38,350 bases of DNA, taken from contig JAJPHW010000168.1 in NCBI GenBank assembly GCA_021325035.1, forward strand, positions 1-38,350, read 5' to 3'. Both the position numbers and the translations under genes were made by a program. Below the pieces are notes generated by a model. The model searched no databases, was not told where the DNA came from, and saw nothing but the letters and a program-made list of their open reading frames with translations. Below are positions 54 through 37,176 of this stretch, one piece after another. Within the stretch, counting starts at the first letter, position 1, and each line of letters opens with the position of its first letter. The DNA comes from Terriglobia bacterium. Lineage in GTDB: Bacteria > Acidobacteriota > Terriglobia > Terriglobales > Acidobacteriaceae.

Positions 54-1745
<1,692 letters not shown>

Positions 1746-1763
1746 TCAAATTGTTTTGGAAAG

Positions 1764-1794
1764 TTGTGCAGGCTGGGGTGCACAATCAATTATG
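1764..1794 (-). promoter_or_regulatory. pyrG leader inverted repeat and candidate extended -10
   Basis: On the minus strand, TGGCATAAT (bases 1797-1789) resembles an extended -10 element upstream of pyrG; no good -35 is visible. Just downstream, where the 5' end of the transcript should lie, is a perfect 7-bp inverted repeat: TTGTGCA at 1764-1770 and TGCACAA at 1779-1785, with an 8-nt spacer. It could be an operator or a leader hairpin. The promoter call is tentative; the inverted repeat is directly visible. Confidence 0.4.
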
Positions 1795-1843
1795 CCAGAA
1801 AAAGTTTAGGACGAAAAGAAAAACCAGAAAATGGAGCCACAGT

Positions 1844-2242
1844 TCAACGCAGCCAATTCTCACGTCGCAGATCGCCGACCCTGGCAAATTCTTTTTCGTT
1901 GTCCGTGATGATTGTGTGTCCCAGTGCCAACGCCTGCGAGGCAATGAGCATGTCATTGCCGCCGATTGGTTTGCCTGCACGTTCAAGCCCGGCACGAAGC
2001 AATCCGTAAGCTACATCTGCCGGTGCCTCGAACGGCAGAACTTCCAACGCTCCCAGTATCGCTTCAAGCTGCGCAGACAGCCGTGGCGAGTTTTTCATCG
2101 CAGCCCCGTAACGCAGTTCGGACGCGACTATGATGCTGGTACACACTTGTCCCTCGCCAACCTTGCGAATATGCTCTGCCACTTTTCCTTGTGGGTTGCG
2201 GACCAGATCAGACACGATGTTGGTATCTAAAAGATAGCGCAT
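1844..2242 (-). CDS. vapC: PIN-domain ribonuclease toxin, VapC family
   Basis: Predicted endoribonuclease toxin of a type II VapBC module. VapC toxins cleave specific RNAs, often initiator tRNA or rRNA, when freed from their antitoxin. The 132-residue protein is a complete PIN domain: N-terminal YLLDTNIVSDL with Asp6, then Glu42, Asp97 in GGNDMLIA and Asp114 in ITDNEKEF, the four acidic positions that bind Mg2+. It starts 3 nt after the stop codon of the antitoxin gene (TGA then CGC then ATG), the usual tight coupling with antitoxin first. The RNA target cannot be read from sequence. All catalytic residues are present, so the toxin is probably active. Confidence 0.95.
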   Translation of the reverse strand: MRYLLDTNIVSDLVRNPQGKVAEHIRKVGEGQVCTSIIVASELRYGAAMKNSPRLSAQLEAILGALEVLPFEAPADVAYGLLRAGLERAGKPIGGNDMLIASQALALGHTIITDNEKEFARVGDLRRENWLR

Positions 2243-2245
2243 GCG

Positions 2246-2521
2246 TCAGAGATTCACCGGATCCGGCGAGACGTCATGGATGGATGGGAAGTCTTCGTCC
2301 AGCTTCCCCAGGGTCGCCAGTACAGCCATGAGGGACTTCGGGGGAGCGGGCTCGATAATAAGCCGGGTGCCGTCCTTTCGCATGACGGCGTCTTCACCGG
2401 GAAATTCGAACTCACGCGGTATCCGGACCGCCTGGTTTCGGCCGTTGCGAAACACTTTGACGTGACGTTCCAAGTTTACGGTGGCCTTCTTTGGTAGATG
2501 CTTTGGCATATGCCTTAGCAT
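2246..2521 (-). CDS. vapB: VapB antitoxin, AbrB/SpoVT-fold
   Basis: Labile antitoxin that neutralises the adjacent VapC and should autoregulate the pair. The 91-residue protein has the swapped-hairpin AbrB/MazE-type DNA-binding signature (VKVFRNGRNQAVRIPREFEF, about residues 21-40). It has an acidic C-terminal tail of the kind that wraps around the toxin. The start is uncertain: ATG at 2521 gives 91 residues and has a GAGG element 12 nt upstream; an in-frame ATG at 2509 would give 87 residues beginning MPKHLPKK. Both start codons sit inside the perfect palindrome at 2505-2526, the likely operator. Confidence 0.92.
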   Translation of the reverse strand: MLRHMPKHLPKKATVNLERHVKVFRNGRNQAVRIPREFEFPGEDAVMRKDGTRLIIEPAPPKSLMAVLATLGKLDEDFPSIHDVSPDPVNL

Positions 2522-2526
2522 ATGCC
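2505..2526. promoter_or_regulatory. Perfect palindrome over the vapB start, candidate VapBC operator
   Basis: Two perfectly complementary 9-bp arms, GGCATATGC (2505-2513) and GCATATGCC (2518-2526), are separated by 4 bp. The site covers both possible vapB start codons. VapB and VapBC complexes bind palindromes near their own promoter, so an autoregulatory operator is the natural reading. In RNA the same palindrome could fold over the start codon and limit vapB translation. Confidence 0.55.
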
Positions 2527-2592
2527 AATACGGCCTCGGTGTCTACAACATTCGTACGTGTTTACCACGAGGTCTTTTTGGCCCCCGCTCAA

Positions 2593-3039
2593 CTATTTGC
2601 TCACCAAGATGGGCCGGTCTATCTGTGTCTTCAGCACGATCGTCGCCTCGGTCTGTTCAACACCCGGAATTTGACGTAACTGTTCCGTCAACATCAATAA
2701 GTCTTCGGTTTTGCCGACGCGCACTTTTAGCATCATGGCCAACTGCCCAGCAACAGAGTGACATTCTTCAATACAAGAAATTGCCAACAATCCATCGAGC
2801 AATTCAGAACAGGGCCGCGTCGCACGCACACCCACAAAGGCCGTCACGCCTAAACCGACGGCGGACGCATCGAGATCAATCGTCCATTTACGGATGACTC
2901 TTTCCTTCTCCAGCCTACGCAGCCGCTCGTGCACAGACGAAGGCGCAAGCTTTACCAAATGCGCCAGGTCTTCTAGGCGACGGGAGGCGTTTTCCTGCAA
3001 GGCATCAATGAGGGCGAAATCTTTTTTGTCCAAGTCCAT
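2593..3039 (-). CDS. Lrp/AsnC family transcriptional regulator
   Basis: A 148-residue one-domain-pair regulator of the feast/famine family. Residues about 1-60 form the winged helix-turn-helix (DLDKKDFALIDALQENASRR, then LVKLAPSSVHERLRRLEKE). The remainder is the RAM effector-binding and oligomerisation domain, with the typical ending in which VEQTEATIVLKT forms the last strand. Such proteins bind amino acids or small metabolites and wrap DNA as octamers. It is divergent from an isochorismatase-family gene, and the 117-bp gap contains three inverted repeats. The obvious inference is autoregulation plus control of the neighbour. The effector is unknown. Confidence 0.95.
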   Translation of the reverse strand: MDLDKKDFALIDALQENASRRLEDLAHLVKLAPSSVHERLRRLEKERVIRKWTIDLDASAVGLGVTAFVGVRATRPCSELLDGLLAISCIEECHSVAGQLAMMLKVRVGKTEDLLMLTEQLRQIPGVEQTEATIVLKTQIDRPILVSK

Positions 3040-3062
3040 ATTGGGTCTATTTTAAGCCACGT

Positions 3063-3081
3063 TTCCGAATATATTTCGGAA
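3063..3081. promoter_or_regulatory. Inverted repeat 1 in the Lrp/hydrolase intergenic region
   Basis: Perfect 7-bp arms TTCCGAA (3063-3069) and TTCGGAA (3075-3081) around an AT-only 5-bp centre. Size, symmetry and AT-rich core resemble sites bound by Lrp/AsnC dimers. It lies 24 bp from the start of the regulator gene, the best candidate operator for autoregulation. Confidence 0.55.
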
Positions 3082-3086
3082 TTATC

Positions 3087-3107
3087 AAATAATTATAATA
3101 ATTATTT
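3087..3107. promoter_or_regulatory. Inverted repeat 2 in the Lrp/hydrolase intergenic region
   Basis: Perfect 9-bp arms AAATAATTA (3087-3095) and TAATTATTT (3099-3107) with a 3-bp spacer, composed only of A and T. It follows inverted repeat 1 with its centre 25 bp away. A smaller third repeat, ATATG and CATAT at 3112-3123, follows again. Tandem sites at short spacing suit a multimeric Lrp-like protein, though AT-only palindromes can arise by chance. Confidence 0.45.
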
Positions 3108-3156
3108 CAGCATATGTGCATATCACCATAATCTAATTCGACAAGGAGGTTCCATC

Positions 3157-3717
3157 ATGCAAGCTCTTATTGTCGTTGATGCCCAAAACGAATTTTCCGC
3201 CAAAGGAAAGCGCCCGGTTCCCAATCACGCCGAAGCCCTTAAGCAAATCCAAATGCACGTCGAGCAAGCCCGCCGGGAAAAACGCCCTATCGCCTGGATT
3301 CGCCATCACAACCGCCCCAACGAATCGTCCGCGTTCATGCCGGGCACTTGGGGAGCAGAGCTTTCCCCGGGACTCGGCGAAGCCACGGGTTTCGGCCCGG
3401 AAAAATCGTTTACCAAAGACGTATTTGGGGCGTTCACCGGAACTTCGATTGAAGAATGGCTGCGTTCTCTGGGCGTTAGCAGCCTATTGATCGCGGGCTT
3501 CTATGCGCACATGTGCGTTTCAACCTCTTCCCGCGAGGCGCTGATGCGCGGCTTCGATGTCGCGATTGATCCGCTTGCGGTCGGATCCTGCGATCTGGAG
3601 GATGAAATATTGGGCCGCCAATCCGCCGACGAAGTCCGCCGTTCTGCTTTGCTCCACCTGAAGCAGATGGGCGTGACGATTTTGCGGGAAAAAACCGCAG
3701 AGAAGAGCATCGCTTAA
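3157..3717 (+). CDS. Isochorismatase-family cysteine hydrolase
   Basis: A 186-residue alpha/beta hydrolase of the isochorismatase/nicotinamidase superfamily, which cleaves amide or vinyl-ether bonds through a Cys-Lys-Asp triad. Asp8 is in LIVVDAQNEF, a lysine is at 83 or 87 in GPEKSFTKDVF, and Cys120 is in GFYAHMCVSTSSREA. The ATG has an excellent ribosome binding site (AAGGAGGT, 6 nt spacing). It is divergently transcribed from the Lrp-type regulator and likely controlled by it. Pairing with an amino-acid-sensing regulator suggests an amidase-like role in nitrogen or amino-acid catabolism, but the substrate cannot be assigned; nicotinamidase is not supported by any specific motif. Confidence 0.93.
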   Translation: MQALIVVDAQNEFSAKGKRPVPNHAEALKQIQMHVEQARREKRPIAWIRHHNRPNESSAFMPGTWGAELSPGLGEATGFGPEKSFTKDVFGAFTGTSIEEWLRSLGVSSLLIAGFYAHMCVSTSSREALMRGFDVAIDPLAVGSCDLEDEILGRQSADEVRRSALLHLKQMGVTILREKTAEKSIA

Positions 3718-4045
3718 CGCGCGGCATACTTCGATAGCAGGCATTTTTCCCGCCTGAAGTTTGAAATGCCTTGTTTTCATGTACTTACAATGATGTACCA
3801 ATGTGTAAATTTTGAGCCCTTAACTTGTTGATTTTGTTTGACTTATATTCGCGAGTTAAATCGAGTTAATAAGCGATTAGAGAAGGCGGAAGTGAGCAGG
3901 AGGGAAAATTCCCTGCCTTGCGCTCGATTTTTGCATCCTGGCGGCTCCTGAACGCAGTGCGAGGCATTCCTGAAAGTCATTCAACCGACGAATCCGAGAA
4001 GACACATCAGAGAATAAATTGCTCAATGCCAATTTAAGGAAATTT
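3718..4045. other. Intergenic stretch without a gene
   Basis: About 330 bases between the hydrolase and the tRNA, AT-richer than its surroundings in the first half. Reading frames here are short and show no ribosome binding site or protein-like composition. A short inverted repeat (AGGGAA and TTCCCT, near 3901-3916) is the only structure seen. No T-tract terminator for the hydrolase or the tRNA could be recognised. Confidence 0.5.
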
Positions 4046-4121
4046 TGGTGGACCTGGTCGGGATCGAACCGACGACCTCTTCCATGCCATGGAAGCGCGC
4101 TCCCAGCTGCGCCACAGGCCC
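4046..4121 (-). tRNA. tRNA-Ala, anticodon GGC
   Basis: The minus strand folds into a complete cloverleaf. The acceptor stem is GGGCCTG with CAGGTCC, including the G3:U70 wobble pair that is the alanine identity element. The anticodon stem CTTCC/GGAAG carries the loop ATGGCAT, so the anticodon is GGC (plus-strand bases 4086-4088), reading GCC and GCU alanine codons. The T arm is GTCGG, TTCGATC, CCGAC. The discriminator is A73 and the 3' CCA is encoded in the DNA (4046-4048). Mature length is 76 nt. It stands alone. Confidence 0.98.
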
Positions 4122-4289
4122 ACATTTGAAGGGAGCCGAACCAGTGAACGATTCGGCCTCATCAATTCTCGCCTACATAGCTTTCTGAGTCAAACTTCTG
4201 CGTCAAACATGTTGAGATGGAAGCCCTTCCGCGTCTCAGAAAGTTTGCCAAAGCGGGGAAAATCAGTATTCTTAAATGGAATCTAACCG

Positions 4290-5003
4290 ATGAAGCGAAA
4301 AAGCACACTCGGCTGTTTATCAGCGGCGGTTCTTACGTTTGCGGCCGCGCTCCATGGTCAGTCACCGGCGCCACAGTCTGCCGAGCCTGTCGCTTATGCT
4401 TCGGTCAACCAGCTCAATCAGTTATTGGAACAGTTGCAGAAATTCTCCGACTCGTCACAGGCTGATTTGAGCAAGCTACGCATTGAACACTGGAAAACGG
4501 ACTCGAACACGCGCAAGCAAACCCAAGGCAATGTGGATTCGCTCACGCGCAATCTGCACGACGCGTTGCCTGAAATGATTTCCACTTTGCGCAGCTCGCC
4601 GGAAAATTTGGGAGCAACCTTCAAGCTCTATCGGAATCTGGATGCGCTCTACGACGTCTTTGGTTCGGTGGCGGAGTCCGCGGGAGCCTTCGGCTCAAAA
4701 GATGAATTCCAATCTCTCGACAATGATCTGAATGTGCTCGAACAATCGCGCCGCGCCTTCGCGGACCGCATGGCAGATTTGGCTTCCACAAAAGAAAACG
4801 AGATTGCGAATCTAAGAACGAAGCTGCAACAAGCGCAAGCGGTGACTCCCGCAACTCCAGTGAAAAAGACCGTTGTGGATGACGCGGCCCCTGCCAAAAA
4901 ACCTGCCACCAGCAAGACAGCCAAGAAGAAAACCGTGCCCAAACCGCCGGCTTCTGATGCGGCCAATTCCACGGCAACCCCTGCATCCAATCCGAACCAA
5001 TAA
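4290..5003 (+). CDS. Secreted protein of unknown function with Lys/Pro/Ala-rich tail
   Basis: I do not recognise a family. The 237-residue product begins with a signal peptide (MKRKS, then a hydrophobic stretch ending ALHGQS, cleavage near residue 24). The middle, about residues 35-175, is predicted helical, with heptad-like segments such as VNQLNQLLEQLQKF and NEIANLRTKLQQAQ. The last 60 residues are a low-complexity tail of Lys, Ala, Pro and Thr, rich in KK and KP pairs, probably disordered and basic. No ribosome binding site is obvious before the ATG. A periplasmic structural or envelope-associated role is plausible but unsupported. It precedes the ECF sigma operon by 174 nt in the same orientation. 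Confidence 0.8.
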   Translation: MKRKSTLGCLSAAVLTFAAALHGQSPAPQSAEPVAYASVNQLNQLLEQLQKFSDSSQADLSKLRIEHWKTDSNTRKQTQGNVDSLTRNLHDALPEMISTLRSSPENLGATFKLYRNLDALYDVFGSVAESAGAFGSKDEFQSLDNDLNVLEQSRRAFADRMADLASTKENEIANLRTKLQQAQAVTPATPVKKTVVDDAAPAKKPATSKTAKKKTVPKPPASDAANSTATPASNPNQ

Positions 5004-5047
5004 ATCGCGCAATCGTAAGTAATTGATAAATAAACAGTTGCATACAT

Positions 5048-5076
5048 GGAACTCTTGCATGGTTCCCGGGGTCTAT
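5048..5076 (+). promoter_or_regulatory. Candidate ECF-type promoter for the sigma/anti-sigma operon
   Basis: GGAACT at 5048-5053 and TCTAT at 5072-5076, 18 nt apart, resemble the GGAAC and TCTA elements recognised by RpoE-like ECF sigma factors, which commonly drive their own genes. It would give a leader of roughly 90-100 nt before the GTG start. The match is by eye. Confidence 0.35.
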
Positions 5077-5177
5077 ATCAACGTAGGTTCGTTTCGTTAT
5101 CACTTGCGTGACCGCAGCGGGCATTACTTTTAAGGTTTCGCAAAGAGCAGCGCGAATCTATAATCGGAGGTAGTCCG

Positions 5178-5927
5178 GTGACCGTAATGGCGGGAACAAC
5201 CAGTTTGGGCGACCTCGCAAATGCAATTGCAGTTCGGTCAGAGGAATCTGCCATTGTGGCGGAATTGCAAGCGGGATCCGAAGAAGCCTACGCCTGGCTC
5301 ATTAAAGAATTCCACCAACCCATCTACAGTCTTGTGTATCGGATTTTGTCCGACCCGTCAGATGCCGCCGATACCACGCAGGAAGTTTTTCTAAAGGTCT
5401 TTCGCGGCGTGCGTCACTTTCACGGCAAATCCAGCCTGAAGACATGGATCTACCGCATCGCACTGCATGAGGCATCGAACCGGCGCCGCTGGTGGTTCCG
5501 TCACAAGGCCAAAGAAACTCCGATTGATCCCACGCAGGAAAATGCCACCGATGAATCCGGCTATGCGCTTCCGCTGAAAGAATTGATGGATGGCGGCGAA
5601 TCGCCATTCGAAAATTTTGCGCATGAAGAAGTGCGCGCGCGGGTGGAGCAGGAGTTGAGGCAAATTCCGGAACCCTATCGCACGACTGTGATTTTGCGCG
5701 ACATCGAAGAAATGTCGTATGAGCAGGTCGCGGAAATTACAGAAGTATCGCTGGGCACGGTGAAGTCGAGGCTCACGCGCGGAAGAGAAGCTTTACGTCA
5801 GCGGCTTGTAGAGTATGTCCGGCAGGCAGGCCCTGAGCTGGGATTGAAGTCTCCACTTGAACGCAAATCGAAACGGGCTGCGGCCACGGGCTTTGCCGCA
5901 AAACCGGGGATTGAGGTGGCGTCATGA
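5178..5927 (+). CDS. RNA polymerase ECF sigma factor, RpoE-like
   Basis: A 249-residue extracytoplasmic-function sigma factor. Region 2 spans about residues 45-105, with the -10 recognition helix DAADTTQEVFLKVFRGVRHF and the core-binding SSLKTWIYRIALHEASNRRR. Region 4 spans about 160-212 (IPEPYRTTVILRDIEEMSYE, VAEITEVSLGTVKSRLTRGR), the -35-binding helix-turn-helix. A charged linker and a 30-residue basic tail make it slightly longer than a minimal ECF factor. GTG at 5178 is chosen because CGGAGG lies 8 nt upstream; the next ATG (5187) would be 17 nt away. Its stop overlaps the start of the anti-sigma gene (ATGA), so the pair is translationally coupled. Confidence 0.96.
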   Translation: MTVMAGTTSLGDLANAIAVRSEESAIVAELQAGSEEAYAWLIKEFHQPIYSLVYRILSDPSDAADTTQEVFLKVFRGVRHFHGKSSLKTWIYRIALHEASNRRRWWFRHKAKETPIDPTQENATDESGYALPLKELMDGGESPFENFAHEEVRARVEQELRQIPEPYRTTVILRDIEEMSYEQVAEITEVSLGTVKSRLTRGREALRQRLVEYVRQAGPELGLKSPLERKSKRAAATGFAAKPGIEVAS

Positions 5928-6586
5928 AGTGTACTCAGGCCCAATCTTTGTTTTCGCCCTATCTTGACGGAATGCTTACGGGCAAGGAAATGCTCGGGCT
6001 GACCAAGCATTTACGGGAATGCGAATCATGCGATCAGTCATATGTGAGTTTAAAGCGGACGCAGCAGTTGTTGACCAAAGTGGGGCCACGCAAAGTTCCG
6101 GCTGATCTGGAATTGAAGTTGCGTCTTGCCGTTTCGCGGGAAGCAGCACAGCAGAATCTTCGCTTGCATGCATTGCGAATTCAATTGCGTCACGCCATGC
6201 AAGCGTTCATGGTTCCCGCCAGCGCAGGTTTGGCTGCGACGGTCGTACTTTTTGGCGTGCTCATGGCCTTCCTGACTCCGCCCTTGCAGGCAAACAATAG
6301 CGATGTTCCGTTGGTGATCCAGACCGCGCCGCAGTTTCAGCAATCTGCGTTCGGTACGCCGGTAAACAGCATTAAGGAAGACTCACTGGTGATTGAGGCC
6401 TATGTAGATTCGAACGGGCGAGTGGAGGATTACCGCATTCTTTCGAATCCGGATCAACATGAAGATCTGCCGGTGCCGATTAAGAACATGCTGATCTTCA
6501 CGACGTTCCGCCCGGCGACTTTGATGGGGCATCCCACCTCTGGGCGGGCCGTGATGTCTTTTTCAAAAATCAACGTAAAAGGGTAG
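5924..6586 (+). CDS. Membrane anti-sigma factor with zinc-finger domain and TonB-like C-terminus
   Basis: Predicted to hold the upstream ECF sigma factor inactive at the inner membrane and release it on an envelope signal. The 220-residue protein begins with a zinc-binding anti-sigma (ZAS) motif: Cys3, then His29-x3-Cys33-x2-Cys36 in KHLRECESCDQ. One transmembrane helix lies at about residues 91-113 (PASAGLAATVVLFGVLMAFL). The periplasmic part ends in a segment resembling a TonB C-terminal domain: VIEAYVDSNGRVEDYRILS, then FTTFRPATLMGHPTSGRAVM. In TonB such a fold contacts outer-membrane receptors; here it may be the sensing end. The overlap with the sigma gene is 4 nt. Confidence 0.88.
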   Translation: MKCTQAQSLFSPYLDGMLTGKEMLGLTKHLRECESCDQSYVSLKRTQQLLTKVGPRKVPADLELKLRLAVSREAAQQNLRLHALRIQLRHAMQAFMVPASAGLAATVVLFGVLMAFLTPPLQANNSDVPLVIQTAPQFQQSAFGTPVNSIKEDSLVIEAYVDSNGRVEDYRILSNPDQHEDLPVPIKNMLIFTTFRPATLMGHPTSGRAVMSFSKINVKG

Positions 6587-6730: not shown

Positions 6731-7687
6731 ATGATCCCATTAGGCGCAGAAGAGACAATCCCCGCTCCTCAACCTGTTCTTGCGCCGCTCACCAGTGCAG
6801 CGATATTCCTTGTGATGTCCATCAAGCCGGGGCGCGAGAGCTATGCCACCGTGCGCTCGCTCTGTGCCGATCTTCCGGGAATTTTCCGGGCCGTTGATTT
6901 TCGCCGCATCGAAGGAGGCCTCTCGTGCGTCGCGGCATTCGGATCGGAGGCATGGGACCCACTCTTCGGCAAACCCCGGCCCGCCGAACTGCACCCATTT
7001 CGCGAGATCAAGGCAGGAGAACGGCACGCCGTCTCGACTCCTGCTGACTTGTTGTTTCATTTACGCGCCAAACGAATGGATTTGTGCTTCGAGTTGGTCA
7101 CCCAAATCATGCAGCGGATTGGCGGGGCCGTCTCCGCCGTGGACGAGACCCACGGCTTCCGCTACTTCGACGATCGCGACCTTCTTGGATTCGTGGATGG
7201 AACAGAAAATCCGCGGGGCGCAGCGGCGTTGAATGCCGCGCTGGTCGCCGGAGAAGACCCTGCGTTTGCGGGTGGAAGCTACGTGATTATTCAGAAGTAT
7301 TTGCACGATATGGCCCGGTGGAACGCCCTCTCTACGGAAGAGCAAGAGCGGATCGTGGGGCGCCAAAAGCTAACCGATATCGAATTGAGCGATGAGGTGA
7401 AACCATCTTCCGCGCACAATGCCCTGACCACGATTGTGGAGGATGGCAAAGAGGTCAAGATTCTCCGTGACAACATGCCCTTTGGGAAACCCGGTCAAGG
7501 CGAGTTCGGGACCTATTTTATTGGGTACAGCCGAACGCCAAAAACAACCGAACAGATGCTTCAGAATATGTTTATCGGAAAACCACCGGGCAACTATGAC
7601 CGGCTCCTGGACTTTAGCCGCGCCGTGACAGGAAGTTTGTTTTTTGCGCCGTCGGCAACGTTTCTGGAGAACTTGGAGGATGAGTAA
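6731..7687 (+). CDS. Dye-decolourising (DyP-type) heme peroxidase
   Basis: A heme peroxidase that oxidises organic substrates or porphyrins with H2O2. The 318-residue protein carries the family signature LLGFVDGTENPRG with catalytic Asp156, a likely proximal heme ligand His229 in PSSAHNAL, the distal Arg246 in KILRDNMPFG, and the C-terminal GTYFIGYSRTP strand. Length and order fit the bacterial class B (YfeX/DypB-like) group. No signal peptide or twin-arginine motif is present, so it should be cytoplasmic. There is no encapsulin gene beside it and no C-terminal cargo-type extension. The ATG at 6731 has only a weak ribosome binding site. Confidence 0.95.
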   Translation: MIPLGAEETIPAPQPVLAPLTSAAIFLVMSIKPGRESYATVRSLCADLPGIFRAVDFRRIEGGLSCVAAFGSEAWDPLFGKPRPAELHPFREIKAGERHAVSTPADLLFHLRAKRMDLCFELVTQIMQRIGGAVSAVDETHGFRYFDDRDLLGFVDGTENPRGAAALNAALVAGEDPAFAGGSYVIIQKYLHDMARWNALSTEEQERIVGRQKLTDIELSDEVKPSSAHNALTTIVEDGKEVKILRDNMPFGKPGQGEFGTYFIGYSRTPKTTEQMLQNMFIGKPPGNYDRLLDFSRAVTGSLFFAPSATFLENLEDE

Positions 7688-7709
7688 CGTAGCAGTAAGA
7701 GCGGTGTGG

Positions 7710-7789
7710 TTTGTACTTCACACTCGAATGCGGAGATGATTTCTGATTCTAGATCGCCGGAGACGTTTGTTGGCGAATTCAGTGGTTCC
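7710..7789. repeat. Direct repeat A, copy 1
   Basis: An 80-bp sequence that recurs at 7949-8027 with most bases identical, including a 28-bp exact core starting at CTGATTCTAGATC. A 1-bp length difference separates the copies. It lies directly after the DyP stop codon. Read in one frame both copies begin VCTSHSNA, but no gene-length frame continues from it. Confidence 0.9.
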
Positions 7790-7846
7790 CACTCTTGCGC
7801 AACGAACGCGCAAGAATGGGCCACCCATCCATTTGATGTGATGCAC

Positions 7847-7878
7847 GCAAAACCGGCGGCTTGTGTGGGCCACCCGTC
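7847..7878. repeat. Direct repeat B, copy 1
   Basis: A 32-bp sequence beginning GCAAAACCGGCGG that recurs at 9108-9139 with 30 of 32 bases identical. The two copies flank the TPR gene at 8041-8820 in the same orientation. Confidence 0.9.
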
Positions 7879-7948
7879 ATTCAGGCCGTATTTGGCTTGA
7901 GTGGGGAGTAAGAAAGCTAGATTCAACGAATGCTAGCGGTTTGTGCAG

Positions 7949-8027
7949 TTTGTACTTCACACTCGAATGCGGCGATTATTCTGATTCTAGATCGCCGGAG
8001 ACGTTTGTCGGAAAATTCAGTGCTTCC
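7949..8027. repeat. Direct repeat A, copy 2
   Basis: Second copy of repeat A, 239 bp downstream of the first and in the same orientation. It ends 13 bp before the most likely start of the TPR gene, so it may supply that gene's promoter or leader. Confidence 0.9.
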
Positions 8028-8040
8028 TAAGAATTCTAGT

Positions 8041-8820
8041 ATGAACGATGCAATCGAACATGCTCATCGTTTGTGTTATTCAGGAAAGTTCGATGAAGCC
8101 TTAGCTCAGTTCAAAGGTCTGGAATCGGACAGCGTCGATGCGGCTGATAAGGCGGGTTTCTTGCTCGACCAAGCAACCTGTTATTCGGAGTTAGGCAGGA
8201 TGGAGGAAGCTCGGGCCTGCGTCGCAAAAGCCAAGCCACTCATCATAGGCGATTTAGAAGCTTCCGTGCAGATCGATCTGTTTGCAGCTAAATTATTCAT
8301 GAAGGAAGGGAACAATGAAGATGCTATTGAGGCTCTTTCGTGTTTACTAGGTACATATGCTGAATGGTTAAGCACGAAACAAGGTGAGAGTCTCTATCAA
8401 GAGATACAAACAGAGCGCGCGTTTACTCTAATGCATATACCACGCTACGAGGAGGCTCGGCCAATCCTAGAAAGCGTAGTTAAGTTCCCGTTGGACAAGG
8501 AAATCGAAGCATGTGCGCGCTGCCACCTCGGTCGCTGCTATTTTGAGTTGAAAGAAGACTCCCTAGCTAAAGAACAATTCTTAGAAGCGAATCGCATCGG
8601 TGTGCCAGAAGATTGGGAAGCTAACTTCCATTTCCACTTTGGCTACACGCTTTACAACCTGCGATCGTTTAAAGAAGCAAACCGGGAATTCGTTTTATGC
8701 CTGCAATCGGGACCTCCCGGCCCACCAACGTCTTTGACGTATAAGATGCTCGCTGCAACAAGTCGCAAGTTGGGCGAGTTCGCTCAAGCACGCCTCTTCG
8801 ACAAAATGGCTGAATCTTAA
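8041..8820 (+). CDS. TPR-repeat protein of unknown function
   Basis: A 259-residue soluble protein made of tetratricopeptide-like helix pairs along its whole length. Examples are LLDQATCYSELGRMEEARA near residue 42, ARCHLGRCYFELKEDSLAKE near 160, FHFGYTLYNLRSFKEANREF near 200 and MLAATSRKLGEFAQARLFD at the end. No signal peptide or membrane segment is seen. ATG 8041 is preferred because the frame upstream of it translates the non-coding repeat A; no convincing ribosome binding site is present. Codon use is AT-richer than the neighbours (more CTA, TTA and AGA-type codons), which together with the flanking direct repeats suggests acquisition from elsewhere. TPRs mediate protein contacts, so no enzymatic function can be inferred. 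Confidence 0.75.
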   Translation: MNDAIEHAHRLCYSGKFDEALAQFKGLESDSVDAADKAGFLLDQATCYSELGRMEEARACVAKAKPLIIGDLEASVQIDLFAAKLFMKEGNNEDAIEALSCLLGTYAEWLSTKQGESLYQEIQTERAFTLMHIPRYEEARPILESVVKFPLDKEIEACARCHLGRCYFELKEDSLAKEQFLEANRIGVPEDWEANFHFHFGYTLYNLRSFKEANREFVLCLQSGPPGPPTSLTYKMLAATSRKLGEFAQARLFDKMAES

Positions 8821-8901
8821 AAGATCAGTATGATTCCAGGGCGAGGGGCTGGCCCATGCAATGCTCGCGGATTTTCTTCTCGCATCTTAATCTACTGGGG
8901 A

Positions 8902-8935
8902 TGCCCCATGCTTCGCGGTTTTCGAAGCGTGGGCA
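8902..8935. repeat. REP-like palindrome 1
   Basis: Imperfect inverted repeat: TGCCCCATGCTTCG (8902-8915) and CGAAGCGTGGGCA (8923-8935) around a 7-nt loop. It belongs to the same sequence type as the elements at 9021, 36251 and 36360. Confidence 0.75.
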
Positions 8936-9020
8936 CCACGGCCCTCGAAGCAATCAATTCCGGAAGTATAAATCGGGGCCTTATTAGGAGACAGGAAAAA
9001 CCGGTTTATCGGGTTCATCG

Positions 9021-9054
9021 TGCCCACCCTTCAAAAACCGTGAAGGGTGGGGCA
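9021..9054. repeat. REP-like palindrome 2
   Basis: Near-perfect inverted repeat: TGCCCACCCTTCA (9021-9033) and TGAAGGGTGGGGCA (9041-9054), one bulged base, 7-nt loop. It shares the TGCCC...TTC arm pattern with palindrome 1, 119 bp away in the same orientation. Confidence 0.8.
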
Positions 9055-9107
9055 TCCCCTTTTAATGAGGCTACAAAGAATGAGAATTTCAAAGCTGGGC
9101 CAGCACT

Positions 9108-9139
9108 GCAAAACCGGCGGCTTGTGTGAGCCACCTGTC
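9108..9139. repeat. Direct repeat B, copy 2
   Basis: Second copy of repeat B, 1,261 bp downstream of the first, differing at two positions. Together the copies bracket the TPR gene, repeat A copy 2 and the two palindromes. Confidence 0.9.
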
Positions 9140-9192
9140 CGCCCTCGCGTTGACCCTCCTTCGATAACCTCATAAACTGGCTCTAACATGTT

Positions 9193-10731
9193 GTGCGTAT
9201 CCCGGAGGTTCGTCTGACCCTGCGTTTCCGTCTTGCGCTTGTACTGGCATGGGCTGGCATGATTGCAATGCCGCTCGCGGCCCAGAACACATCGGCCGTC
9301 ACATTGGACACAAGCGAAACCCTCTTTTCCATTCTCGCGGGAATGAACGCCTGCGGATACGACGCGGAGCTGGCTGCCTCCGATCCGCTGCGTATGCAAG
9401 TCCGCGCGGAAATTGCGAAGAACGTAAAAGCTTCGGCAGCCGCCAACGATGCCAGCCAAACGCTGTGCCAGTTCTATACGGACCATCAAGCGTCGGACAA
9501 TGGACGCAACCTTGCCCAGTACGTATCGCTCGCGCTCTACACAACGCCTCCGCCGGAACTATCCATCAAGGGCAAAGATACTGATTTACCGCCGGATGCT
9601 TCCGGCGTGGCTGGATTTCTGCCGTTTTTACAGAAGTTCTATACCGAAGCAGGGTTGCATGCGATCTGGATGACGCACCGGGCTGCTTATGCCGAGTTGA
9701 CGCAGCGTTATCACGAGCCGGTTTCGAAGATGTTGTTCGACACTGAGGTCTATCTGAAATTGCCGTCGGCGGGCTATCTTGGCCACAGCTTTACGGTCTA
9801 TCTCGATCCTTTGGGCGCTCCCGGCCAAACTAATGCGCGCAATTATGGCGCAGATTATTTTGTCGTCATTTCGCCGGGCAAAGAGACCTCTTTAAAAATG
9901 GAGCAGGTGCGGCACACTTACCTGCACTACTTGCTGGATCCGATGGCGCTCAAGTATCCGGACTCGATCAAGAGGCTCGACCCGCTGCTCGAAACGGTGA
10001 AGAATGCGCCCATGGATGCGAGCTTCAAAAGCAGCTCTTCCCTGCTTGCTACTGAGTCGCTCATCCGGGCCATTGAAGCCCGCACTTCCGGCTCGAGCAA
10101 AGCGCCGGAAGCGGAGCGTCAACAGGCGGTGCAGGAATCCATGGAACAGGGCTATATTTTGACGCAATACTTTTATGATGCCCTGTTGCGTTTCGAAAAA
10201 GACAACGCCGGATTCCGCAATGCCTATGGCGTCATGCTGGCGAGCATTGATGTCGGCAAAGAGAAAAAAACGGCAGAGCAAATTCAGTTTGCCGGCCAAG
10301 CTGATCCGGAAGTCTTGCGGCTGGCGCAGCCGATGCAGGGCAAATTGCTCGTCACGGCGGAACAGCGGTTAAGCGCGGGAGATGCCGCCACGGCACAAAA
10401 ATTAGCACAGGAAGCTTTGGACGCAAAAAACGAGGATTCGGGGCGCGCCTTATTTATCATGGCCCAAGCTGCCACCATGGAGCGTGACATGGACGGGGCG
10501 AAGAAATACTTCGAGCAAACGCTCGGTGTTTCGCATGAACCCAAGCTGGTGGCGTGGTCTCACATTTATCTGGGAAGGATTTTTGACTTGCAAGAGGAGC
10601 GTGAAGCGGCGTTGGACCATTACCGCGCGGCGCTGAGTACGGGCAGCGCGATGCCTGAGGTTAAAGCAGCGGCGGAACGGGGCATTCAAAAGCCGTATGA
10701 GCCTCCAGTACCGGCGCAGCCCCAGCAGTAA
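9193..10731 (+). CDS. Secreted TPR-containing protein of unknown function
   Basis: A 512-residue exported protein. The N-terminus is a signal peptide (RFRLALVLAWAGMIAMPLAA, cleavage near AAQ). The central part contains YGADYFVVISPGKE followed by QVRHTYLHYLLDPMALKYP, a pattern seen in acidobacterial proteins that look like degenerate metallopeptidases, but no HExxH is present. The C-terminal third is TPR-like (ALFIMAQAATMERDMDGAKK, HIYLGRIFDLQEEREAALDH). The start is uncertain: GTG 9193 is used, while the only strong GGAGG (9203-9207) lies inside the frame, ahead of a CTG at 9214. It is followed 61 nt later by another secreted TPR protein, suggesting a shared envelope-related operon. Confidence 0.82.
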   Translation: MRIPEVRLTLRFRLALVLAWAGMIAMPLAAQNTSAVTLDTSETLFSILAGMNACGYDAELAASDPLRMQVRAEIAKNVKASAAANDASQTLCQFYTDHQASDNGRNLAQYVSLALYTTPPPELSIKGKDTDLPPDASGVAGFLPFLQKFYTEAGLHAIWMTHRAAYAELTQRYHEPVSKMLFDTEVYLKLPSAGYLGHSFTVYLDPLGAPGQTNARNYGADYFVVISPGKETSLKMEQVRHTYLHYLLDPMALKYPDSIKRLDPLLETVKNAPMDASFKSSSSLLATESLIRAIEARTSGSSKAPEAERQQAVQESMEQGYILTQYFYDALLRFEKDNAGFRNAYGVMLASIDVGKEKKTAEQIQFAGQADPEVLRLAQPMQGKLLVTAEQRLSAGDAATAQKLAQEALDAKNEDSGRALFIMAQAATMERDMDGAKKYFEQTLGVSHEPKLVAWSHIYLGRIFDLQEEREAALDHYRAALSTGSAMPEVKAAAERGIQKPYEPPVPAQPQQ

Positions 10732-12565: not shown

Positions 12566-13312
12566 ATGGAAGCAGCACATTCACCCGCGCAATCAGGATG
12601 GCCCGGAGCGACACAGGCGCTTCTGACGACCGTCATCATAGCGGTATTCGTGGTTACGTTTATTGTGCAGGCTTTCCAGATTCCTTCGCCCTCGATGGAA
12701 AACACGCTGTTAGTCGGCGATTATCTTTTAGTCGATAAACTGCGCTATGGGAGCGGGTTCTTTGATCAGCTTATGCCGTACCATACGGTGCAGCGCGGCG
12801 ACATTATCGTGTTCCATTATCCCGTGGACCCGACCCAACATTTTGTGAAGCGGGTCATTGGCGTGCCGGGAGATCATCTGCGACTTATTAACCGGAAGGT
12901 TTACATCAACGGCAATCCGATCACGGAAAATTACGTACACTACATTTCGAACCAGCATGACCCTTTTCGTGATGATTTCCCCAAAGTCAATATTCCCGTC
13001 CCCGGGCTGGATGGAAAATGGTGGCTGCAAATGCGCAAGCTGGTGGATGACGGGCAACTCATCGTCCCCGATGGCTACTACTTCGTCATGGGCGATAACC
13101 GCGATGATAGCCAGGACAGCCGGTATTGGGGGTTTGTGCCCCGCGCCAACATTGTCGGGAGGCCATTGGTAATCTATTGGTCAGTAAAATCGAACAGCGA
13201 TGATATGCCGTACGCTCCCAGTCCGGGTGATAAACTACTGCATCTCGCCTATGCGGTGACTCACGTAGTACAAATTACGCGGTGGAACCGCACCTTGCGC
13301 ATCATTTACTGA
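12566..13312 (+). CDS. lepB: Signal peptidase I (first copy)
   Basis: Membrane-bound serine protease that removes signal peptides from exported proteins. The 248-residue protein has one N-terminal transmembrane helix (about residues 18-38, LLTTVIIAVFVVTFIVQAF). It is followed by the catalytic motif PSPSMENTLLVGD with Ser43, the general base Lys95 in HFVKRVIGVPGD, and box E GDNRDDSQDSRYWG near residue 175. It ends TRWNRTLRIIY, close to the second copy's TRWRRTLRVIR. Both copies keep the catalytic dyad, so both are probably active. Confidence 0.97.
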   Translation: MEAAHSPAQSGWPGATQALLTTVIIAVFVVTFIVQAFQIPSPSMENTLLVGDYLLVDKLRYGSGFFDQLMPYHTVQRGDIIVFHYPVDPTQHFVKRVIGVPGDHLRLINRKVYINGNPITENYVHYISNQHDPFRDDFPKVNIPVPGLDGKWWLQMRKLVDDGQLIVPDGYYFVMGDNRDDSQDSRYWGFVPRANIVGRPLVIYWSVKSNSDDMPYAPSPGDKLLHLAYAVTHVVQITRWNRTLRIIY

Positions 13313-13335
13313 AGATAAAAATTAAGGAAACATCT

Positions 13336-14100
13336 GTGGCCAAGAAAGTTAAGCAGGAAGAAAAACCGCGCGAAACTCCAGTCGAATTTTTGACTTCGCT
13401 CGCGTCGGTCCTCGTGACTGGTTTATTCATCATCACATTCATTTTCCAGGCCTTTGAAATTCCATCGAGCTCGATGGAAAACACGCTGCTGATTGGCGAT
13501 CACGTATTCGTCAACCGCGTGCGTTTCGCGCCTCCCAGTCAATGGGTGGGCCCGTTGCTTCCCTACCGCGACATCAAGCGCGGAGATATTTTTGTATTTC
13601 TGTCTCCCGCGGAACCCGGCCTTTATATTGTGAAGCGGTGCATCGGCCTGCCCGGTGATCGAATTCATCTGCGCGATGGCGCGGTTTACCGAAATGGCGT
13701 GAAGTTGGACGAACCGTACGTCATTCACAGCTCTAACGATGGCTACAACCCTTATCGGGACAATTTCCCCGCGGTGTCTCCTTCGGATTTCTACAATGTT
13801 TCTCCGCAATGGCAGGAGGAGCTTTCCAAACATATTGAAGGGGAAGACTTAGTCGTACCACCGAATTCTTATTTTGGCATGGGCGATAACCGCGACGTGA
13901 GCCTGGATAGCCGCTTCTGGGGCTTTATTCCCCGTGAAAACGTGATTGGGCGCCCCATGTTCATTTATTGGTCGTTCGAGACCCCGCCCCTACAGTATTT
14001 GCAAACCGGCATTGGCGACAGAGTTGGGTTTATGGCAAAAGTGATTCTACATTTCTTCGATGAAACTCGCTGGCGCCGCACTCTAAGGGTGATTCGTTGA
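13336..14100 (+). CDS. lepB: Signal peptidase I (second copy)
   Basis: A second type I signal peptidase directly behind the first (23-nt gap). GTG 13336 is chosen: AAGGA lies 7 nt upstream, whereas the longest frame (13282) would overlap the previous gene. The 254-residue product has a cytoplasmic Lys/Glu-rich start, one transmembrane helix at about 22-40, catalytic Ser46 in IPSSSMENTLLIGD, Lys100 in YIVKRCIGLPGD and GDNRDVSLDSRFWG. It carries differences in the substrate-facing loops (APPSQWVGPLLPY insert), consistent with duplication followed by divergence. Its last bases overlap the TTG start of the AsmA-like gene. Confidence 0.95.
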   Translation: MAKKVKQEEKPRETPVEFLTSLASVLVTGLFIITFIFQAFEIPSSSMENTLLIGDHVFVNRVRFAPPSQWVGPLLPYRDIKRGDIFVFLSPAEPGLYIVKRCIGLPGDRIHLRDGAVYRNGVKLDEPYVIHSSNDGYNPYRDNFPAVSPSDFYNVSPQWQEELSKHIEGEDLVVPPNSYFGMGDNRDVSLDSRFWGFIPRENVIGRPMFIYWSFETPPLQYLQTGIGDRVGFMAKVILHFFDETRWRRTLRVIR

Positions 14101-36040: not shown

Positions 36041-36250
36041 ACGTCCTCCAAATGTAAGCATTCTATGCCCGTCAGGGCTCTTCGGCAGGGCGGGGTTCAC
36101 ACACACGATACTTAGACGGACGACAAGGCGAAACGTGGGCACTGGTGCCCCAGAGCCTGCCCTGAGCAAAGCCGCAGGGTTAACCCTACTTTGGCTAACC
36201 TGGTGACGGGGGAACTTGAACTCTGCTGGAAGCGTCACGAAAGAGGCTGT

Positions 36251-36280
36251 CCCATCTTCGCGGGGTTCGAAGGATGGGAC
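36251..36280. repeat. REP-like palindrome 3
   Basis: Arms TCCCATCTTCG (36251-36261) and CGAAGGATGGGA (36269-36280) pair with one bulged base around CGGGGTT-type loop bases. The CTTCG...CGAAG core matches the elements near 8.9 kb. Confidence 0.7.
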
Positions 36281-36359
36281 CACGAACCTCCAGAAAGTGT
36301 TCTCTCCAGTCTTTACATCCGGCAATTTATACTGCCGGGGGATGATTGGGTTGAGATCG

Positions 36360-36396
36360 TGCCTCCCACCTTTCGAAAATCACGAAGCGTGAGGCA
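36360..36396. repeat. REP-like palindrome 4
   Basis: Arms beginning TGCCTCCCA (36360) and ending GCGTGAGGCA (36396) form an imperfect inverted repeat around TTTCG...CGAAG. Same type as the other three, more degenerate. Confidence 0.65.
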
Positions 36397-36473
36397 GCCT
36401 CAGAAGAGAAGATGCATAGAAACAAACTGCGGCGATTGGGCGGGCCAGCCCCCAACTGGGAGAGAGAATCGTA

Positions 36474-36794
36474 ATGGAGCTAACTCACAATTTGACTCGG
36501 ATTGATAAGCGATGGGCAGCCGCTAACGGATGTTCATTGATTATCGGAACCATTGTTAGGGCTATGCTTTCAAATCCATCTGGTGTTACTCCCTTGAATG
36601 GCCTTCAGTATAGTCATCTAGTCTCTCAACTTATTCATATTTTATTTAACCCGATAGCCTATTGCGTTGCAGCTCTTCTTCTTGTGTTTAGAGTTGTCCA
36701 GCTTAGGTGCATAGGGTTTTGGAGCATCCTATTTTCATTTGTAATCGGAGGCCTGCTCACCTCATCCGTCGTGACACTTGTTAGTCCATATTAA
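36474..36794 (+). CDS. Small hypothetical membrane protein
   Basis: No family recognised. The 106-residue product has a polar N-terminus, then two or three hydrophobic segments (SLIIGTIVRAMLSN weakly, FNPIAYCVAALLLVFRVVQL and FWSILFSFVIGGLLTSSVVT strongly). GGGAGAGAG lies about 8 nt before the ATG. Its codon composition is AT-richer than the surrounding housekeeping genes, and it sits between palindromes and another small membrane ORF, so it may be a recent arrival or an orphan. Reality as a gene is probable, not certain. Confidence 0.5.
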   Translation: MELTHNLTRIDKRWAAANGCSLIIGTIVRAMLSNPSGVTPLNGLQYSHLVSQLIHILFNPIAYCVAALLLVFRVVQLRCIGFWSILFSFVIGGLLTSSVVTLVSPY

Positions 36795-36921
36795 TGACTC
36801 ATCTCCCATTGTCCCAGAATTAAAGCAGTGGGCGCACCTGTCGGCACTTTGATTGATATAAAACTCGCGTGGGATGTTGCGACGCATGCTTACGGAGCTG
36901 TGAAATGCAGGTGATTCTAAA

Positions 36922-37176
36922 ATGAGCGAAAATAGTCCACTCTCAGTAAGGGACAGAATCTTTGGGTCTATAGCTGGTTTCAGCGGATTGTACTGTGTAG
37001 CCGTGATGTTTGAACTTTCGCTCCCCGGCGCCCGTGAACGCTTCGTCATTGCGCTTGCCATCTTTCTCGTTTCATTCTTGTTTGTCGAGTACAAGAAAGC
37101 AGTTGCCCTTGGCATCCTTGTATTCATTGCGCTGCGATTCGTGTGGGCGGGAATCGTTTTGCTGTGGCAGCATTAG
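36922..37176 (+). CDS. Small hypothetical membrane protein
   Basis: No family recognised. The 84-residue product has two to three transmembrane segments (FGSIAGFSGLYCVAVMFELS, RFVIALAIFLVSFLFVEYKK, ALGILVFIALRFVWAGIVLL). A ribosome binding site AGGTGA lies about 8 nt before the ATG. Positive residues between helices suggest a hairpin topology. It is 127 nt after the other small membrane ORF. A minus-strand frame over the same bases (36762-37127) is less protein-like and is rejected. Confidence 0.55.
   Translation: MSENSPLSVRDRIFGSIAGFSGLYCVAVMFELSLPGARERFVIALAIFLVSFLFVEYKKAVALGILVFIALRFVWAGIVLLWQH

Follow-up and report, generated by a model that had tools for sequence, protein, structure and literature searches.

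A TPR gene between detached halves of a composite repeat with a REP-like hairpin in a Terriglobia genome

The locus described here raises the question of how a gene of unusual composition came to lie between two pairs of direct repeats. The window, the whole stretch of 38,350 nucleotides that was analysed, is contig C58 of a Terriglobia genome of 3.86 Mb in 232 contigs. It encodes on its plus strand, at 8041-8820, a TPR protein of 259 amino acids. A preliminary description of this DNA had reported a repeat A, present twice in front of the gene, and a 32-bp repeat B on either side of it, and had read the arrangement as a mobilised or duplicated cassette, or possibly a gene-family expansion site. 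Self-comparison of the window confirmed both repeats. The two A copies, A1 (7704-7789, plus strand) and A2 (7943-8027, plus strand), were approximately 90% identical, the duplication being made up of two adjacent blocks (7741-7789/7979-8027, 92%; 7704-7741/7943-7980, 89%). The 3' end of A2 was located 13 bp upstream of the TPR start codon at 8041, as previously reported. B1 (7847-7878, plus strand) and the core of B2 (9108-9139, plus strand) were identical at 30 of 32 positions (94%), and the genome search and the B model placed the whole of B2 at 9103-9139. An inverted repeat downstream of the TPR gene (8897-8936/9020-9059), which the preliminary description did not mention, was also found. 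No match to a transposase family was detected among the seven proteins scanned between 4290 and 11674, in agreement with the earlier remark that no transposase is present. A target-site duplication at B was considered and rejected, because the repeat is 32-37 bp long and has family members elsewhere in the genome.

The position of these elements might indicate a regulatory role, in which A would act as a promoter or leader and the inverted pair 3' of the gene as a terminator or mRNA stabiliser. The short distance between A2 and the TPR start codon and the terminator-like stems at 9043-9060 speak for this explanation. However, the sole promoter-like match within A2 was on the other strand, and promoter-like matches were no more frequent than expected by chance (2, where shuffled sequences had 1.3 on average), with 3 terminators against 1.5. 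Furthermore, there was no Rfam match at E ≤ 0.1 within 7600-9250, leaving a known RNA element unsupported. A regulatory explanation was consequently judged very improbable.

A and B are not two separate repeat families, as had been proposed, but form one composite repeat, A being its left half and B its right half, with copies on other contigs. When the region 7690-8040 was compared with the whole genome, nine matches were obtained, including itself. The copy on contig C13, used as a query, gave 20 genome matches at E ≤ 0.01, again including itself, several of which consisted of a hairpin alone. In the other genome copies, A, the hairpin and B follow each other in this order on one strand. Besides those in the window, whole or partial composite copies were found on C13 (A, hairpin and B), C91 (a shortened A, hairpin and B), C154 (hairpin and B), C78 (A and B but no hairpin) and C69 (two copies, each with A and hairpin only). 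The left part of A (7704-7759) had no match elsewhere with the 7690-8040 query, and was aligned to other copies by the A model (R3). Within the window, composite copy 1 comprises A1, a hairpin at 7783-7828 (plus strand; 67.2 bits with the hairpin model, R1) and B1. The inverted repeat downstream of the TPR gene consists of two further hairpins, at 8897-8938 on the minus strand (51.1 bits) and at 9018-9059 on the plus strand (51.0 bits).

The hairpin is REP-like. In an alignment of 15 hairpins from this genome, compensatory changes (one or more per pair) occurred in three of the seven consensus pairs. At least 80 R1 matches were present in the 3.86-Mb genome at E ≤ 0.01; the scoring covered 150 of 2024 candidates, under stricter filters, so that the figure is a minimum. 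R1 matches occurred in 24 of 25 genomes of the same family (own genome included), in one of 14 genomes of the same order from another family, and in neither of two genomes of the same class. R1, R2 and R3 were trained on some of the same copies that they subsequently found. In a sample of 20 sites of this genome, taken from the best-scoring ones listed, 11 hairpins overlapped no selected ORF of at least 60 aa, six overlapped ORFs of 65-165 aa and three were inside ORFs of 347, 392 and 974 aa, these ORFs being mechanical and not called genes; that the hairpins lie outside genes is thus likely, though not certain. The terminal GTAG tetranucleotide was seen in only one of the 15 aligned copies, and the hairpin was therefore filed as REP-like and not as a GTAG REP. 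The motif GGGGWSAS was present in none of the 15. Weaker R1 matches in the window, at 36243-36282 (minus strand, 13.2 bits) and 36360-36401 (plus strand, 23.7 bits), form a second inverted REP-like pair, just preceding the 500-base bin with the lowest GC content in the window (36501-37000, GC 0.44).

Three Y1_Tnp genes were found in this genome, on contigs C91, C51 and C50, and two of the three had R1 hairpins on both sides. The C91 gene sits between inverted hairpin copies; the C51 gene has a hairpin on either side and another inside the gene match (L078, 4466-4511). Against the REP-associated transposase model NF047646, with a cut-off of 80, the genes scored 65.1 (C91), 59.5 (C51) and 89.7 (C50), the C91 and C51 genes each covering only part of the model. 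The open frame of the C91 gene (L076, 3590-4182) corresponds to model positions 50-146, and by eye the N-terminal part appears to be in another frame. The C50 gene had no R1 match. It lies beside a different long palindrome, recognised by eye (L079, 4460-4576), given which a second REP-like family may be present in the genome. Across 33 Y1_Tnp loci, made up of these three and 30 of the 50 matches listed in eight relatives, hairpins were located within 400 bp on both sides in seven, on at least one side in 12 and on neither side in 21. Six of the 15 sequences used to train R1 had come from the C91 and C51 loci; among the 30 loci that remained when the three from this genome were left out, five had hairpins on both sides and ten on either side. 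For comparison, though not as a matched control, 169 kb of syntenic loci from relatives contained two R1 matches. REP-associated tyrosine (HUH/Y1) transposases probably account for the spread of the hairpin family.

As had been noted, the TPR gene is AT-richer in codon use than its neighbours. Its GC content (0.478) and GC3 (0.485) were the lowest among 34 ORFs of the window (at least 150 aa, without overlaps, the TPR ORF being counted from 8041), and it was the only one with a negative synonymous-codon score (-0.063). A longer ORF, 7930-8820, runs through A2, but this is probably not the real start, as the alignment with the homologue in genome G182 begins at the ATG at 8041. Matches to the protein at E ≤ 1e-5 were obtained in seven of 298 genomes of the order, including its own, and the best homologues in the other genomes were 40% and 28% identical. 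Homologues were present in the same-family genomes G182 and G149, and a scan of GTDB gave no more than three homologues, all distant (27-39% identical), of which two appear to be the G182 and G149 genes again. Within its own genome the protein had a single match at E ≤ 1e-8, which contradicts the suggestion of a gene-family expansion site, and this explanation was rejected. Neither a defence nor a phage cargo was supported: PADLOC gave no match at E ≤ 0.01, and there were no phage or plasmid relatives at E ≤ 1e-5. Judged from the TPR match, the product probably serves as a scaffold that binds proteins and takes no part in its own mobility.

The genus is represented by one genome in the collection, so that a direct empty site is lacking, and the locus was compared with those of relatives. 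Twenty such loci were picked among the best matches of the conserved 512-aa gene to the right of the TPR gene (9193-10731, plus strand). The conserved left neighbour is a zf-HC2 gene (5924-6586, plus strand; Pfam PF13490). In 17 of the 20 loci the matches to these two genes lay 83-396 bp apart, a spacing in which some matches start inside the protein. In the window they are separated by the TPR gene and by a gene for a DyP-type peroxidase (6731-7687, plus strand; Pfam and TIGR01413 matches), and neither had a match at E ≤ 1e-5 in the 20 stretches. As the outer neighbours adjoin each other in 17 relatives and the block is present in none of the 20, the DyP and TPR block is accessory. DyP matches at E ≤ 1e-60 were present in 20 of 200 genomes of the family, own genome included. 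By eye, over 13 junctions, similarity to the window restarts at about 9149, at a promoter-like stretch of the 512-aa gene (9150-9178, plus strand; the promoter scan count was at chance level). The DNA absent in the relatives extends from about 6587 to about 9148, and its left edge was not found. Of the loci in which the two neighbours were not seen together, L065 and L070 had no zf-HC2 match within the fetched stretch, L070 lying near a contig end. L060 (genome G305) carried a different insertion at the junction (817-5831, about 5 kb), containing phosphoesterase-like and TonB-receptor-like ORFs named by eye; given this insert, the junction may be tolerant of insertions. Neither of the two R1 matches in the syntenic loci was at this junction. 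Further to the right in the window, two adjacent signal-peptidase-I-like genes, named by eye, follow an RNase III-like gene (12566-14100). The TPR gene seems to be an acquired extra; it is absent at the loci of all 20 relatives, and its repeats are not confined to this site, so that neither a gene kept in place in relatives nor a repeat unique to this locus was found.

These results bear on the idea of a non-autonomous mobile cassette, in which the TPR gene would be the cargo, A and B or the REP hairpins the recognised ends, and a RAYT would act in trans. The gene is indeed accessory and compositionally odd, and it lies between repeats which are also found beside RAYT-type genes, such genes being present in the genome. 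A HEAT-repeat-like gene on C69, named by eye (L075, 3868-5465), is likewise placed between two direct composite copies, the starts of which are 1.37 kb apart. A mobile cassette would be expected in more than one copy or location, yet the TPR protein had its one match in the genome; no R1 match was seen in the fetched stretches of its three nearest homologues (L071/L121, L072/L123 and L122), and no plasmid or phage relative was obtained at the threshold given above. Moreover, B2 is only half of a repeat, and the DNA missing in the relatives exceeds the bracket, with the DyP gene outside it, so that the repeats do not mark both ends of the accessory DNA. The cassette proposed in the preliminary description thus stands in part, as an odd, accessory gene beside a locally duplicated repeat, and fails in taking pieces of a dispersed repeat for cassette ends. 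A mobile cassette was considered improbable.

The halves were then considered separately on the genome, with models for which 150 of 672 and 150 of 757 candidates were scored. The A model gave at least eight matches at E ≤ 4e-4, and one weak match on C160 (E 0.64); the B model gave at least six at E ≤ 2e-5, with another two, weaker, on C71 (E 0.07 and 0.85). A2 was the only one of the eight A copies adjoining neither a hairpin nor B, and B2 the only one of the six B copies adjoining neither a hairpin nor A. An A copy on C141, which appears decayed, reaches only something like the first hairpin arm. A2 and B2 lie on the same strand, in the order of the composite, on either side of the TPR gene, and enclose approximately 1.07 kb that contains this gene and the inverted REP pair. 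Part of the stretch between the TPR gene and B2 (8845-9061) has relatives on C69 and C13. For the copies in the window, the closest pairs were A1 with A2 (77 of 85 aligned positions, gaps uncounted) and B1 with B2 (30 of 32), by a narrow margin with gaps ignored; A2 and the C13 copy shared 65 of 73 positions, which is close to the value for A1 and A2. Leftward extension of B2 towards a hairpin was no better than chance, being reached in 37 of 500 shuffles.

It could be argued that this arrangement is a coincidence, in which an accessory gene lies amid clustered REPs, and A2 and B2 are copies that were truncated independently. REPs are abundant in this genome and several of the listed sites are close together, and the C78 composite without a hairpin and the decayed C141 copy speak for this reading. 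However, the one A copy that is clearly detached and the one detached B copy are 1.1 kb apart on the same strand and in matching order, and A2 is closest to A1 and B2 to B1, if narrowly. Coincidence was therefore regarded as unlikely, if somewhat less so than a cassette.

The simplest history is a duplicated composite with a split second copy, though the chance-level extension of B2 counts against it. The composite would have been duplicated locally, giving A1-hairpin-B1 and A2-hairpin-B2. A segment of some 1.07 kb (8028-9102), carrying the AT-rich TPR gene and the inverted REP pair, would then have landed in copy 2, at or near its hairpin, separating A2 from B2. The least certain step is the entry itself, for which recombination at repeat DNA is preferred to the transposition of a B-ended cassette. 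Taken as a whole, the explanation that A and B are halves of a REP-like composite, which was duplicated and had its second copy split by the TPR segment, is probably correct. A bolder proposal, which we consider unlikely, is that REP hairpins serve as landing pads for foreign genes in these Acidobacteria. The TPR segment would have entered the duplicated composite at its hairpin, where a RAYT may have cleaved a single strand; if this were true, separated repeat halves would mark the entry points of accessory genes. Should the composite indeed have been split, detached halves of a known repeat could locate insertions of acquired genes in genomes without close relatives. Repeats that surround an unusual gene are not necessarily its mobility ends, and here they belong to one scattered, hairpin-bearing family. 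The site seems for the most part to be ordinary scatter of such repeats in the genome, with one tidy but putative split-repeat scar.

Among known systems, REP/REPIN sequences with their RAYT (TnpA-REP) transposases are similar in being short imperfect hairpins in many copies, which here are single, in inverted pairs or in composites, and which lie beside Y1 transposase genes matching NF047646. They differ in that 14 of the 15 copies here have no GTAG tag, and in that the two hairpin-bearing genes of this genome are partial NF047646 matches below the cut-off. BIMEs are comparable in that REPs are joined with other repeat modules into composites, with linkers usually shorter, it seems, than the non-REP module A (approximately 85-100 bp). 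In Acidobacteria, according to one report, RAYT-like genes form a defined TIRYT group flanked by terminal inverted repeats (TIRs); one of three such inverted repeats in Koribacter versatilis is a repeat family (ORF1552), and some TIRs have a common GGGGWSAS motif (PMC3733652). In Solibacter usitatus, structures associated with class 3 TnpA-Y1 genes are present in about 600 copies, according to a second report (PMC6006769). The TIRtrons/TIRYT group resembles the present family in belonging to the same phylum and in having RAYT-like genes with flanking inverted repeats able to form a family (PMC3733652); the GGGGWSAS motif of that report is missing here. The repeat family thus agrees in kind with known REP/RAYT-type systems, those of Acidobacteria included, yet GTAG occurs in only one of its 15 copies and GGGGWSAS in none of 15. 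The site is best read as a REP-like family of known kind around an acquired gene, with one neat but putative split-repeat scar.
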